Source: Candidatus Tyloplasma litorale
Lineage (GTDB): Bacteria > Bacillota_I > Bacilli_A > Mycoplasmatales > Hepatoplasmataceae
Reading direction: 5' to 3'
Assembly: GCA_027943885.1 (NCBI GenBank)
Contig: AP027078.1
Coordinates: forward strand, 1-64,000
Length of the DNA: 64,000 nucleotides
Shown: piece after piece, positions 22,757 through 30,999 of the stretch
Layout of the letters: each line of letters begins with the position of its first letter
Position numbering within the stretch: the stretch's first letter is position 1
Position numbers and translations under genes: made by a program
The notes under the pieces: model-generated
Told to the model about the DNA's origin: nothing
Database searches by the model: none
Seen by the model: only the letters and a program-made list of their open reading frames with translations

Positions 22757-23620
22757 ATGATTATTTTAAAAAGAGGAATTTCAATAGTTTTTGTTGTTCA
22801 TAGAGATTTAACAAGTAAGTTATCTTATTTAAATAAAATAATTAAAAGAATTCCTAAAAACATTCCTTTTATATTAATTTATGATTCAATTTTATCTAAA
22901 GAAGAAAATACTTATATTAAAGAAAAACTAAATGCTAGAATAAAACTTTTGCAATGTACTAATAGAGGAAAGATGAAAGCAATGCTTCATTTCTCTGATC
23001 AATTTACAACTTCTCATATTAAAATTATTGATCATGATGATAATATAGTTTGATTTTCATTAAGAAAATTTAACAGAAAGGTCAAAAAAATTGATCCAGA
23101 TTGTTTTATTTGACACAAGGCTGCCAAAGTTTTTAAAGATTCTAAGATCTATGGAAAACAAACAACATCTTTTTTTAAATTGGTAAAACAATTAAAAGAT
23201 TCTAAAGATGTAAGATGATTAATTCCCCCTAATGCTCAAACACTTTATAATACAAAAATTTTACAAAAAATAAGCAGTGTTGAATTTGATAGACAAAGAT
23301 TTTTTAATGACAATTTTTTGACTTTATCATGTCAAGCTTTAACTAAGGAAACATATTATATTAAAAAACATATACCATATATTCAATTTCACCGTTTTGG
23401 ACAAACATCTGTTGTTAATGAACAAAAGGGTTGATCTCTTGTTGAATTTTTCAAAAATTTAGACACATTAAACAAAAATTTTGAAATTGATTTTTCTAAT
23501 TCCAATTGAAATAAAGAGAGTTCTATAAATTGATTAGATCAACAATCTAATCAATTTGAAGAACAAAAAAGTTATTATTTTGATAATGCAAAAATATATT
23601 GAGATAAATTGTGAAAGTAG
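22757..23620 (+). CDS. Putative glycosyltransferase (GT-A/GT2-like), copy 1
   Basis: 287 aa. Starts GISIVFVVHRDLTSKLSYLN, like GT2 enzymes (beta strand, then the nucleotide-binding loop), has an ILIYDS strand at the position of the usual D-x-S, and KIIDHDDNIVW at residues about 89-99 resembling the metal-binding DxD. A Trp/Phe-rich acceptor part with QFHRFGQTS follows. Its paralogue starts 10 bp later. No TM anchor. Donor and acceptor are unknown; decoration of surface glycolipid or polysaccharide is an inference. Confidence 0.6.
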
Positions 23621-23629
23621 GCTTAATTT

Positions 23630-24487
23630 ATGAAAAAAGGAATATCATTGGTTTTTATCACACATGAAAAATTAAATTCTAGTCTAGAATATTTAAATAA
23701 ATTATCAAGAAGAATATCTTCAAATATTCCTTTTTATTTAATATATGATTCTTATATTTCTAAGGAAGATAAGAAAAAATTTTTAAAAAAATTAAATAAG
23801 AAAATTATTTTTTTAAATTATGGCGAAAATATAGGTAAATTAAAATCTATATTATTTTTTTCCAAATATTTTAAAACAGAATACATTAAAATTGTTGATC
23901 ATGATGATAATATAGTTTGGTTTGCATTGGAAGAATTTAATAAGAAAATTAAAAAAATAAAAAATAATCAATTTGTTTATCATAAGGCTGCTAAAATTTT
24001 TGAAAATAGTAAATTTTATGGTTATCAAACAATTGATAAAAAAATTTTGAAAGAAATGTTAAATGAATCAGAAAATGTTAATTATTTAATTCCCCCTAAT
24101 GCTAAGGTTTTATATAATACACAATCATTAAGAAAAGTAAGAAAAATAAAATTTTATGATCAAAAGTATTTTGATGATAATTTTTTAAGTTTAATTTGCC
24201 AATTTTTTTCAAAAAAAACATTATCTGTAAATGATAAACCTTATATTCAATTCCATCAGTATGGGCAAACTTCTTCTTTTATTTTTGAAGAAGTTGAAAA
24301 TTCAATGATTAATTATTTTAAAAATTTAATATTATTAAAAAATAATTATGAATTAAATTTTTCTAATTCTTCTTGAACAAAAAAATCATCTTTTAAATGA
24401 TTGGAATGATATTTTACACAATTTGATGAGTATAAAGAATCATTTTTTGAGACTTCTAAAAAAGAATTAGAAAAATTTTGGGAATAA
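23630..24487 (+). CDS. Putative glycosyltransferase (GT-A/GT2-like), copy 2
   Basis: 285 aa paralogue of the preceding gene: same start GISLVFITHEKLNSSLEYLN, same IVDHDDNIVWFAL metal motif, YLIPPNAKVLYNT and FHQYGQTS. The two are clearly a tandem duplication that has diverged. Ends ELEKFWE with TAA at 24485. Probably cotranscribed with copy 1. Confidence 0.6.
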
Positions 24488-26475: not shown

Positions 26476-26483
26476 TTTTATAT

Positions 26484-26489
26484 TATAAT
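26484..26489 (+). promoter_or_regulatory. -10 box of the tracrRNA gene
   Basis: TATAAT 6 nt upstream of the first base of a 12-bp hairpin, placing the start site at about 26496. No clear -35, as for most promoters in this window. Confidence 0.6.
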
Positions 26490-26495
26490 AATATT

Positions 26496-26583
26496 AATAC
26501 ATATTACAAAGGGTAGTATGTATTGGTCAATTTCATAGGTATAGGTAGAAACAATTTTAATTAGTTGTTTCTACTTTTTTTTT
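26496..26583 (+). ncRNA. tracrRNA-like RNA with perfect anti-repeat
   Basis: About 88 nt in three parts. (1) 5' hairpin: AATACATATTAC (26496-26507), loop AAAGG, GTAGTATGTATT (26513-26524), one U-G pair. (2) Anti-repeat GGTCAATTTCATAGGTATA (26525-26543), 19 nt exactly complementary to the last 19 nt of the CRISPR repeat found 2.4 kb downstream. (3) Terminator hairpin GTAGAAACAA (26545-26554), 10-nt loop, TTGTTTCTAC (26565-26574), then nine T. The T run fixes the strand as +, the same as the array. It would pair with the repeat segment immediately 5' of each spacer. Mollicute type II tracrRNAs accompany Cas9; no Cas9 is here. Confidence 0.9.
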
Positions 26584-26590
26584 AAATTGC

Positions 26591-26596
26591 TATAAT
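26591..26596 (+). promoter_or_regulatory. Promoter of the CRISPR-associated 754-aa gene
   Basis: Extended -10 TGCTATAAT ending 9 nt before the ATG at 26606, 8 nt after the tracrRNA T run. The mRNA would be leaderless or nearly so, and transcribed independently of the tracrRNA. Confidence 0.6.
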
Positions 26597-26605
26597 TTTA
26601 TCATT

Positions 26606-28870
26606 ATGTATAAAGTAAAAGAAAAAACTAAATTAGAAAAAGACAATGAATTGGAAGAAAGTATTAAATTAAATAATGAAAATTTTCGAAAATTGTCTAA
26701 AATTTTAGAAAAATTATTATTAAAAATAGAGCCAATACTTATAAAAAGATCTAAAGAATTAGAGTTAATAATTTCTGATGATAATAGAAAAAATGAAAAA
26801 AGTAATAATTTAATAGAATTAGAGAAAATAAATAAATCTTTAAGAAGTTTTGATAAATTAAGATCTTTATTTATTTTAAAAATAAGAGAATTAGAATTAT
26901 TTTTAGTTAATGCTGAAAAAGAATATAAAAAATATAAATATTTTAGATTAGATAATTTTTTACAATCTGATGAATATAATAATGATTTTTTTGAACAAAA
27001 AGAAATTTTATATGGATTAAGTTATGAGGGTAAAAAAATTAATGAAAAATATTTTGATACATATTTATCATCGTTTGAAACAAAATATGGTCTTGTAGAT
27101 TTTTCTAATAAAATCCTTTATGATAAAATTCTTTTAAAATCTGAAGAAGACATAGAAATTGCTCTTCAAAAAAAAGAAATTAGAGAAGAAATAAGAATAA
27201 AAAATGATTTTACAAAATTTTTAATTTTTTTAGCACCTAATATATACCGGAATTATGATTTTTCATTCTTGCCAAATTATAAGAGAAGGAAAACATATGA
27301 AAAAAGTCTTATTCAATATATTATTTCAATAAATAATTTAAGAAATTCTTATATAAAATTTTTTTATCCAAATTTAAAAAAAGATAATGAAGATAATATA
27401 GATGCAGAAAATGAAAAAATAGATAATTTAAAAAATAAAGATTGTTTTTATTTTTATTCTAAAAATAAAATAATAAAAAAAGATAAATTAAAGAAATCAT
27501 TTCAAAAAGATTTATTCTTCTTTTTAGAAGCTACATTTATTTGAACTAAAAAGGCAAATAGAAATATTTTAATAAATTCTATAAAATCAATATTTTTTAA
27601 ATTAAAAGATAATATTTCTTTGGATTATGGTGAATTAAATAATTTTATTTGTAATTCAAAGAAAGAATTAGATGAATTAAGATTTAAAGTAAATAAAGAT
27701 AACAATTTAACATGGGAAAAATCTCTTAATAATAGTCATTTAAAAATTTCTGATAGTAAAAAAAGAAGAATGTATAATTCTTATTCTCATTCTATTTTTT
27801 TAAGAAGCCAAAAGATTATAAATGCAAATAAAATAAAAAATAAAAAGGATAAATATAAATCATATTTAATGCTTCCTGATTCATTAAATAAAACAAAATC
27901 TTTCGAAAATTTTTGAGAAAATAATAATGAATATAATTCTATAATAAATTTTAATGATGATTTAATAGAAATTTTTAATTTACATTTTATTTTTTTAAAT
28001 AATATAAAAAGAAAAGTTATTGAATATGGTTTAGAAGAAAAAATAAATCATAATTTTTTCATAAGTGAAAAAAATAAGAAGAAAATATTAAAATTAAATA
28101 AAGAACTTAAATTAGGATATTTTAAAAATGATATTTTTAATTTTAAAGATTTTAAAACAATATTCACTAGTAAAGATTTAATTTTTCTTAAAGAATACAA
28201 ATTTAATTTTTCTTTAAAAAATTTAAATAATAATTTTTCTATTTTAGAATCAAAATTTAGATTTTCAAATAAAAATAATACAAAAGAAGAAAATAGTTTT
28301 CTTTCTTTATTTGATGAATTAAGAAATTTAAAAATGCATCCAAGTAGTTTTTTATGAGAAAGAGATTTAAGATTTGTAAAAAAAGTTATAAATTTATTAA
28401 CTGAAAAAATTAATGGTAATAAATTATTAAAAATATCTTTTTTAAATAAAAACTTAATAATTTTATTCAATAACGCTTATTCAAATTTAAATATAAATAA
28501 ATATAATAAATCTTTTAATATTTTTATTTATTATTTAATAATAATTATTTTATATAATTATGTAATTGACTTTGATGTTAAACAATTATCTTCTCATGTA
28601 GATAAAGAAAATTTTAATTATTTAAAAGGGATTACTTTAAGTTATAAAAATTCTTTATTAGGTATTAGAAAAATAGAAAACAATAATAATGTAAAAATTG
28701 ATGAGGAAAAGGGATCCATATTTTCATTAAGTAAATATTTATTTTTAAAAAAAGAAAATAATGAAAAAAAATATAAATTATCAAAAGAAGATAGAGAATT
28801 AATTTTTTCATATATAAAAATAATAAAAATATTTAAAAATGAATTATCTTCAATAAATAAAAATAAATAA
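26606..28870 (+). CDS. Putative single-protein CRISPR effector with HEPN-type motif
   Basis: 754 aa, Lys/Asn/Ile-rich, mainly helical in appearance, no signal peptide; residues 638-652 are very hydrophobic but may be a core helix. In-frame TGA gives W313, W437 and W584. I see no RuvC (D-x-G) or HNH pattern and no similarity to Cas9 or Cas12. The segment FDELRNLKMHPSSFLW contains R573-N-x3-H578, the RNxxxH form of the HEPN ribonuclease motif, followed by a charged helix as in HEPN domains. INNLRNSYIKFFYP (R246, N247, K251) looks like a second HEPN motif with His replaced by Lys; R388-x6-H395 is a weaker alternative. Two HEPN motifs in one protein is the Cas13 plan, at the size of compact Cas13s. 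Lies between its tracrRNA-like gene and the CRISPR array. Alternatives: Abi-type HEPN protein, or an extremely diverged effector of another type. Confidence 0.75.
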
Positions 28871-28947
28871 TTTATAATTTATTTACAAATTAGTTTGATA
28901 TTTAATGCTTATTTTTATTATGTATTTTATTAATTTGTTATTTATTA
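28871..28947 (+). promoter_or_regulatory. CRISPR leader
   Basis: 77 bp, almost only A/T, between the effector stop codon and the first repeat. The upstream end of the array has the intact repeats, so this is the leader side. No perfect TATAAT is visible; the array may be transcribed from weaker AT-rich elements or by read-through from the effector. Confidence 0.55.
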
Positions 28948-30171
28948 GGAGCGTTCAGCTCCTTTATACCTATGAAATTGACCTTAAATTATCTAAATCA
29001 TTTTCTTTATCACGGAGCGTTCAGCTCCTTTATACCTATGAAATTGACCATGTTATCTTTAATAGTATAAAATTCATCAGGAGCGTTCAGCTCCTTTATA
29101 CCTATGAAATTGACCTTAATCTTTTATTAAAATGCTCTTTTATTGGGAGCGTTCAGCTCCTTTATACCTATGAAATTGACCATGTTATCTTTAATAGTAT
29201 AAAATTCATCAGGAGCGTTCAGCTCCTTTATACCTATGAAATTGACCTTTCAAATTCTAAATATTTTATATTTTTATGGAGCGTTCAGCTCCTTTATACC
29301 TATGAAATTGACCCTTTTATATTTTTTGTTGAATCATTCACTTGGAGCGTTCAGCTCCTTTATACCTATGAAATTGACCTTAAATTACAACAAATACGTG
29401 AGCAAGATTGGAGCGTTCAGCTCCTTTATACCTATGAAATTGACCTAATATAAATTACTTTAATCCTTTAAGAATGGAGCGTTCAGCTCCTTTATACCTA
29501 TGAAATTGACCACAATAAACACACTTTCCACAGGGCTTATTGGAGCGTTCAGCTCCTTTATACCTATGAAATTGACCTTGACTTCATATCAATATTCATT
29601 ATGATATGGAGCGTTCAGCTCCTTTATACCTATGAAATTGACCTAAAAAATGATTTAATTACAGCTTCTGCAAGGAGCGTTCAGCTCCTTTATACCTATG
29701 AAATTGACCAGGTCAAATTTATAAATCTAAATTTTCTAAGGAGCGTTCAGCTCCTTTATACCTATGAAATTGACCTTAAGTATTCAATTGAAACTTCTCC
29801 TTTTTGGAGCGTTCAGCTCCTTTATACCTATGAAATTGACCTCTACATATCTTGATAGATAGTCATTCATTGGAGCGTTCAGCTCCTTTATACCTATAAA
29901 ATTGACCTTTTAGGTCTTCTAACTTCATATATGGCTCGGAGCGTTCAGCTCCTTTATACCTATGAAATTGACCAATCAATCTAAAGCATTTAATTCAAAG
30001 GCAGGAGCGTTCAGCTCCTTTATACCTATGAAATTGACCTTGCTCTTTGCTCTTTCATAGTAACACCTTGGAGCGTTCACCTCCTTTATACCTATGAAAT
30101 TGACCGTTTTACTTTCTTTAAAAGCTTTCTTGTATGGAGCGTTCACCTCCTTTATATCCATGAAATTAATT
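28948..30171 (+). CRISPR. CRISPR array: 19 repeats of 36 bp, 18 spacers of 30 bp
   Basis: Repeats start every 66 bp from 28948 to 30136; every spacer is exactly 30 bp. Repeat parts: positions 1-15 GGAGCGTTCAGCTCC (5-bp stem, 5-nt loop), 16-17 TT, 18-36 TATACCTATGAAATTGACC, which is the exact complement of the anti-repeat at 26525-26543. The repeat at 29872 has one change (CTATAAAA), those at 30070 and 30136 have CACCTCC in the hairpin, and the last is further decayed at its 3' end, so the trailer is at 30171 and transcription runs on +. crRNAs would then have the handle 5' of the spacer. Spacers 2 and 4 (29050-29079 and 29182-29211) are identical; 17 are unique. I see no match of a spacer inside this window. 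Confidence 0.98.
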
Positions 30172-30185
30172 AAAAATTTTTAAAT

Positions 30186-30212
30186 AAAAAAAGAGCACTT
30201 AGCTCTTTTTTT
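30186..30212 (+). terminator. Terminator of the CRISPR array transcript
   Basis: AAAAAAAGAGC-ACTTA-GCTCTTTTTTT, an 11-bp stem ending in a T run, 14 bp after the last repeat. It supports + strand transcription of the array. Confidence 0.8.
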
Positions 30213-30252
30213 ATTTTTGATTTATTTTTATTTTAATGGATGATTTTTTATT

Positions 30253-30260: not shown

Positions 30261-30267
30261 TAAATAT

Positions 30268-30999
30268 GTGAATAATGATATTGAAAATAATTCTAAGGAA
30301 TTAAAAAATAAAAAGGAAAGATATAAAATAATAAATAAAAAAGGAATAGGAGAATTTTTAAAAGATATAAAATATCCTATTTATTTTTTGGATTTTGAAG
30401 CTATTTCTGAAAAAAAGGATTGAATGTTAAAACATAATTTGCCTTTAGATCAACAAATTTCATCTTTTTCAATTTTAAAAATAAATACTAAAAGAGATAT
30501 TAATGAGAATAAAATAAAGCATTTTAATTTTGTTGGTAAAAAAGAAGATTATAAATTAATGGCAAAAAAATTAAGTGATTTTTATAAAAATAAACCTGGA
30601 ACAGTTGTTGTTTGGGATCGGATTTTAGAAAATAATGCATTAATTAAATTAATGAAAAATGCTACTAAAGATGATGAAGTTGTTATATCTGAAATGCTAA
30701 AATCAATAATTGATTTACAAAGATTATTTATTGATAAAACATTTATTTCTGTTAATAAAGTATCTCTAGATTTTGTTTCCAAAGCATTTTCAATTTATGA
30801 AGATGGTGGAATTAAAGATGGTCGGAAAGCTCATTATATATTGGCGGATGCTGAAATAAATAAAGAAAAATATACTTCCAAGAAATTAAATAACACATCT
30901 AAAAGAATTGAAAAATATAATAATTCAGATGTTATTAATATCAAAAGAGTATTATTTGAAATTTTAAAAATTATCAACAAAAAAGAGAAAGCTAATTAA
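30268..30999 (+). CDS. Putative DEDD-type 3'-5' exonuclease, DUF2779-like, next to CRISPR array
   Basis: 243 aa. YPIYFLDFEAIS carries D42-x-E44, the first DEDD exonuclease motif; VVWDRILENNALIKLM (D117) and YNNSDVINIKRVLFEILKI (D221) match the later acidic positions. Pattern and order resemble DUF2779, an RNase H-fold domain usually at the C-terminus of longer mollicute proteins; here it stands alone after a short Lys-rich N-terminus. Start GTG 30268 follows TGTATAAT by 7 nt; the TGA before codon ATG 30424 is Trp, so the longer reading is right. Its position 56 bp after the array terminator suggests, but does not prove, a role with the CRISPR locus (for example spacer trimming or target degradation). 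Confidence 0.65.

Follow-up and report, generated by a model that had tools for sequence, protein, structure and literature searches.

In the 2025 classification, types II and V are the only CRISPR types with a recorded tracrRNA (PMC12669027), and a literature search, conducted mostly without subscription papers and without bioRxiv, found no tracrRNA-using Cas13. Cas13an, a compact Cas13, is a stand-alone effector encoded beside an array without cas1 or cas2 and is missed by HMMs; it is 429-577 aa long, needs both of its two HEPN motifs, and works with one RNA component and no tracrRNA (PMC12165695). In some Cas13an genomes, type II Cas1-Cas2 is present in trans (PMC12165695). The proposed ancestor of Cas13 is AbiF (PMC12373285; PMC12165695), a HEPN RNase with an RNQCAH motif, which is inhibited by a terminated ncRNA of ca. 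100 nt encoded directly upstream of it (PMC12373285). The tracrRNA of mollicute type II Cas9 systems consists of a 5' anti-repeat followed by a nexus and a terminator (PMC6882279), with no preceding 5' hairpin. For 'Ca. Tyloplasma litorale', which lives in the isopod Tylos granuliferus as a gut symbiont, two CRISPRs were listed by the describers, and the type II-A system alone was analysed (PMC10928387). A second CRISPR of Spiroplasma syrphidicola EA1, an array with a predicted tracrRNA and no identified cas genes, was mentioned without data (PMC6882279).

The window analysed here comprises bases 1-64000 of the 615,622-bp genome of 'Ca. Tyloplasma litorale' (AP027078.1). It contains a ca. 3.7-kb cassette (26476-30216), in which a putative tracrRNA gene, a 754-aa ORF, and a CRISPR array with a 36/30-nt unit follow each other in this order on the + strand (Table 1). 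Two congeneric genomes have no array at this place: the genes that flank the cassette, for a membrane protein on the left and a DUF2779 protein on the right, adjoin each other in them at a distance of 50-54 bp. We therefore conclude that the cassette is, by this comparison, a block that came or went as a unit, and that the DUF2779 gene lies outside it. This RNase H-like gene (30262-30999), located right after the array, was considered as a cas gene and rejected, being an ancestral neighbour that is kept without the array in relatives. The inserted block has a class 2 layout, with one large putative effector gene beside the array and nothing else; adaptation genes are absent from it, and Cas1 and Cas2 are encoded only in a separate type II-A locus. 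Judged by its sequence, the cassette matches no catalogued CRISPR type. Elsewhere in the window (22757-24487), a tandem pair of diverged glycosyltransferase-2-like genes was observed, whose DNA is 71% identical over 131 nt.

Table 1. Features of the cassette; positions are those of the 64,000-nucleotide window.
Feature	Position	Strand	Basis
-10 box TATAAT of putative tracrRNA gene	26484..26489	+	Sequence, consensus match only
12-bp 5' hairpin of putative tracrRNA	26496..26524	+	Predicted fold
Anti-repeat, 19 nt, pairs with repeat positions 18-36	26525..26543	+	Sequence match, hybridisation energy
Intrinsic terminator ending putative tracrRNA, 10-bp core stem and nine T	26544..26583	+	Fold and sequence
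Extended -10 TGCTATAAT, 9 nt before putative effector ATG	26588..26596	+	Sequence, consensus match only
754-aa orphan ORF, code 4 (TGA=Trp), putative single effector	26606..28870	+	ORF call, codon statistics
RNLKMH, residues 573-578 of the ORF, HEPN catalytic motif type R-[NDH]-x3-H	28322..28339	+	Sequence
AT-rich leader, from ORF to first repeat	28871..28947	+	Repeats perfect on this side of the array, degenerate on the other
CRISPR array, 19 repeats of 36 nt GGAGCGTTCAGCTCCTTTATACCTATGAAATTGACC, 18 spacers of 30 nt, last repeat degenerate	28948..30171	+	Sequence
Terminator-like stem 3' of array, terminator-like on both strands	30182..30216	+	Sequence

The initial annotation had described 26496-26583 as a compact tracrRNA, made up of a 12-bp hairpin shortly after a TATAAT box, an exact 19-nt anti-repeat, and a 10-bp terminator stem with nine T, and all of these elements were recovered in our analysis. 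The box ends six nt before the hairpin. The anti-repeat, a single-stranded stretch between the hairpin and the terminator, is the exact complement of the repeat positions given in Table 1, with no longer match within the window. The terminator stem reaches 14 bp when an A-U/G-U extension of its core is included, and its T-run occupies positions 26575-26583. The predicted minimum free energy of the + strand RNA was -26.6 kcal/mol (z of -7.1 versus shuffles), while the - strand folded more weakly (-16.1 kcal/mol) and contained no T-run. When a 66-nt repeat-spacer unit was searched against the whole genome, the anti-repeat was the only match outside the array. In a scan of 88-nt windows on both strands, no site beyond the array hybridised with the repeat at a more favourable energy than the putative tracrRNA. 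By chance, ca. 3e-5 exact matches of 19 nt to the repeat, counting every part of it and both strands, are expected per 64 kb, and 3e-4 per genome. The argument that a 19-bp match 2.4 kb from the array (a distance that we confirmed) is not due to chance is thus sound. That the element is a truncated stray repeat, as it would be if only the opposite strand were transcribed, or a chance match is extremely improbable: very few such matches are expected per window, the - strand lacks a terminator tail and folds worse, and the same plan recurs in S. syrphidicola (see below). The anti-repeat lies in a small terminated transcript unit with a promoter-like box, near the array, and by all sequence criteria this 88-nt + strand RNA is very probably a real tracrRNA. 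The assignment is strongly supported by structure, strand, cassette layout, and the independent second example in S. syrphidicola. Like mollicute Cas9 systems, the cassette combines a terminated tracrRNA with 36-nt repeats and 30-nt spacers, but the hairpin that precedes its anti-repeat sets its tracrRNA apart from theirs.

The array has intact repeats at its left end and decay at its right; the leader is accordingly assigned to the left side and the direction of transcription to the + strand, whose transcript is the one that can pair with the anti-repeat. A hairpin (GGAGC/GCTCC) is located at the 5' end of the repeat. Spacers 2 and 4 (29050-29079 and 29182-29211) are identical, and their neighbours differ. 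A search for protospacers in phages, plasmids, the Tyloplasma genome itself, related genomes, and type II spacers produced chance-level matches only, with no convincing protospacer among them, and an exact 20-nt match to the repeat was absent from IMG/VR.

The 754-codon ORF starts 22 bases past the tracrRNA terminator, and the extended -10 element in front of it is a probable promoter of its own, from which a near-leaderless mRNA would be made. In 60 simulated intervals of the same composition, the longest stop-free run was 132 codons; the ORF is therefore certainly coding. Its GC content at the three codon positions is 0.22, 0.17, and 0.06, respectively. Overall, its GC content is 14.9%, compared with 18-28% in neighbouring genes, the deficit lying largely in the first two codon positions. 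Searches of Pfam, NCBIfam, and PADLOC with the whole protein and with segments (E up to 10) returned no family match, and no match of note was found in PDB, while the PADLOC library readily detected Cas9 (4e-43), Cas1, and Cas2 of the same genome, which served as a positive control. A type II effector match (Cas9 with RuvC and HNH) was not obtained, nor was a match to Cas13 family profiles in PADLOC, NCBIfam, Pfam, or PDB, HMM detection having likewise been escaped by Cas13an. Homologues were absent from 320 genomes of the order, 395 genomes sampled from the class, GTDB genome contigs, IMG/VR, phages, and plasmids. Weak class-level matches (HlyD-like, pullulanase-like, and others) were rejected on inspection as composition matches. 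We consider it likely, with good confidence, that the product of this ORF is the effector of the tracrRNA.

The second array of S. syrphidicola EA-1 (genome of 1,107,344 bp), with nine repeats at 288023-288590 as described (PMC6882279), belongs to a cassette of the same design. A predicted RNA of 84 nt, composed of an 8-bp hairpin, an anti-repeat, and a terminator, is followed, on one strand, by an orphan ORF of ca. 725 aa and by the array of 36/30-nt units; cas1 and cas2 are absent from the cassette, and the genome has a Cas1 and a type II system away from this array. A 4.6-kb block with the cassette is missing from the sister species S. chrysopicola. The ORF, which a single frameshift in a run of A (at about 286950) interrupts, unlike its Tyloplasma counterpart, had no match of note in Pfam, NCBIfam, PADLOC, or PDB, whole or in segments, up to E = 10, and no homologues were found in the collections searched. 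A weak match over its RNEI segment was to TrmFO and was rejected as a homologue. The two cassettes also differ in their repeats, which are unrelated, in their proteins, whose similarity is undetectable, and in the mode of pairing, which in S. syrphidicola extends over the full length of the repeat (31 bp with bulges; cofold energy with a single repeat, -58.0 kcal/mol) and is not limited to positions 18-36. Whatever the effectors turn out to be, these two self-standing tracrRNA cassettes, found in tiny genomes and with effectors absent from the catalogues, amount to a new class 2 variant. Beside the S. syrphidicola cassette, in the region 284022-285584, an adenylate-cyclase-like gene and a membrane protein gene, perhaps a Pycsar-like pair, were observed together with an HNH-like gene; the whole block is absent from S. 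chrysopicola.

Pairing next to the 5' side of the spacer had initially been read as type V-like geometry. The pairing itself stands at the Tyloplasma locus, and the cassette shares with tracrRNA-using type V systems (e.g., V-B, V-F, and V-G) the tracrRNA, this position of pairing, and, for some proteins, a similar size. The effector could be TnpB-derived, with a RuvC that divergence or decay has made unrecognisable, and DNA would then be cut or only bound. The tracrRNA evolved many times in type V, for which ca. 50 separate origins of Cas12 from TnpB have been inferred (PMC12669027), and a loose D-x-G (ISLDYGEL, at about residue 340) is present in the 754-aa ORF. The type V inference was not supported, however. 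Type V systems have a RuvC nuclease and TnpB ancestry, neither of which was detected in the cassette; with thresholds as loose as E = 10, no match to RuvC, TNB, or Cas12 profiles was seen in the two ORFs, searched both as complete proteins and in segments; and, with cysteine at 0.3% of the 754 residues, there is hardly any for zinc fingers. Since the S. syrphidicola anti-repeat pairs along the whole repeat, the position of pairing is not diagnostic of CRISPR type. The missing RuvC signal speaks against type V, though a decayed RuvC is possible, several Cas12 lineages having lost catalysis (PMC12669027). We regard a type V-like effector as fairly unlikely.

A motif of the type R-[NDH]-x3-H, the catalytic signature of HEPN RNases (PMC12373285), is present in both proteins. 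RNLKMH is the sole RxxxxH in the 754-aa ORF, and the S. syrphidicola ORF contains exactly one RNxxxH (RNEISH, at about residue 512 of 726). The motifs are found at relative depths of 0.76 and 0.71, respectively, and an unsupervised global alignment puts them in register. They lie 176-215 residues from the C-terminus, farther than is known for Cas13, which counts against a HEPN effector. In shuffled sequences, one RNxxxH arises with a probability of ca. 0.025 for each ORF, and the background in the proteomes of both genomes is 0.02-0.03 per 750 aa; the joint p of the shared motif is ca. 6e-4, without correction for the other motifs that could have been sought. The shared motif could be a coincidence, since the pairwise similarity of the two ORFs is not significant (z < 1). 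If so, the proteins might form a separate tracrRNA-dependent effector class, neither RuvC nor HEPN, as their lack of mutual similarity and their orphan status in every library and collection searched would allow. Against this, R-N-x3-H occurs once in each ORF at similar depth, and AT-driven divergence in mollicutes can mask homology; a separate class is decidedly unlikely. We infer that the chances of the effector being HEPN-like are about even, and the shared RNxxxH argues weakly to moderately for type VI-like RNA targeting. Several points count against it: of the two HEPN motifs that Cas13 requires, the second is not apparent in the 754-aa ORF, where a degenerate LRNSYIK at 246 could be a dead copy; the pLDDT of single-sequence AF2 models, made without an alignment, was low (36.5 and 44); the S. 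syrphidicola ORF is frameshifted; and the spacers yielded no convincing protospacer. The cassette resembles the Cas13an loci in its stand-alone effector and array, the missing cas1/cas2, type II Cas1-Cas2 encoded in trans, a HEPN-type motif, and its invisibility to HMMs, and differs from them in protein length, in the number of intact motifs, and in having a tracrRNA. A self-contained, tracrRNA-using class 2 cassette with a HEPN, type VI-like effector is, on these grounds, an evenly balanced proposition.

The gene order in the Tyloplasma cassette also matches that of AbiF, with a terminated ncRNA of similar length directly upstream of a gene that is putatively HEPN. An AbiF-like HEPN toxin with an RNA antitoxin, residing beside an array and tuned through the anti-repeat by crRNAs or the array, would be a toxin-antitoxin system first and a guided immunity system second. 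The proposed descent of Cas13 from AbiF would agree with this, but AbiF is a smaller protein (the 754-aa ORF is ca. twice as long as AbiF proteins usually are), its RNA is an antitoxin, and it has no CRISPR array. Neither the Abi_2 profile (Pfam, up to E=10) nor the abiF RNA (RF03085, E<=10) had a match in either cassette, and the perfect anti-repeat and the arrays of 19 and 9 repeats favour a guide function. An AbiF-like system is therefore improbable.

In its most far-reaching form, held with somewhat less than even confidence, the reading we prefer is a tracrRNA-dependent type VI-like system, scattered among mollicutes, in which a HEPN effector with one RNxxxH is guided by crRNA:tracrRNA and adaptation is borrowed from type II. 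Its tracrRNA might have originated as an antitoxin RNA of the AbiF type, of which it would be a relic. The + strand pre-crRNA would pair with the tracrRNA over 19 bp per repeat, the duplex would be trimmed by RNase III (its gene is present in the Tyloplasma genome) or by the effector itself, and the effector would bind the resulting hybrid. With less confidence, the effector would be a HEPN RNase of the Cas13/AbiF type, and a spacer match to a phage transcript would lead to RNA cleavage by the RNLKMH active site, which may work as a homodimer or together with a degenerate second HEPN, e.g., LRNSYIK. RNA-guided cutting of RNA in this manner may be a form of defence that has so far gone unrecognised. 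If true, a HEPN effector with a tracrRNA would be the third independent setting of dual-RNA guiding and would bear on the route from RNA-inhibited HEPN toxins to RNA-guided Cas13. At 754 aa and 88 nt of RNA, the cassette is of a practical size.

New spacers would, in the preferred reading, be supplied in trans by the type II-A Cas1-Cas2. Located at about 456-479 kb of the Tyloplasma genome, the type II-A locus comprises Cas9, about 250 repeats, Cas1, Cas2, and a Csn2-like gene, and, because the 36/30-nt unit is common to both arrays, its Cas1-Cas2 may feed both. The same two observations, type II-A proteins encoded in trans and a common unit, would suit an array and tracrRNA that serve Cas9, with the 754-aa ORF being unrelated to either. 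Yet the repeats of the two arrays are unrelated, the Cas9 system has candidate anti-repeats of its own (481282-481340, - strand), and in two unrelated genera the tracrRNA and the array are separated by an orphan ORF, all of which makes service to Cas9 highly improbable. The type II-A array itself, with ca. 252 repeats (466000-485900 region), is very long for a 616-kb genome, and a PIF1-like helicase/GIY-YIG gene is located between it and cas1.
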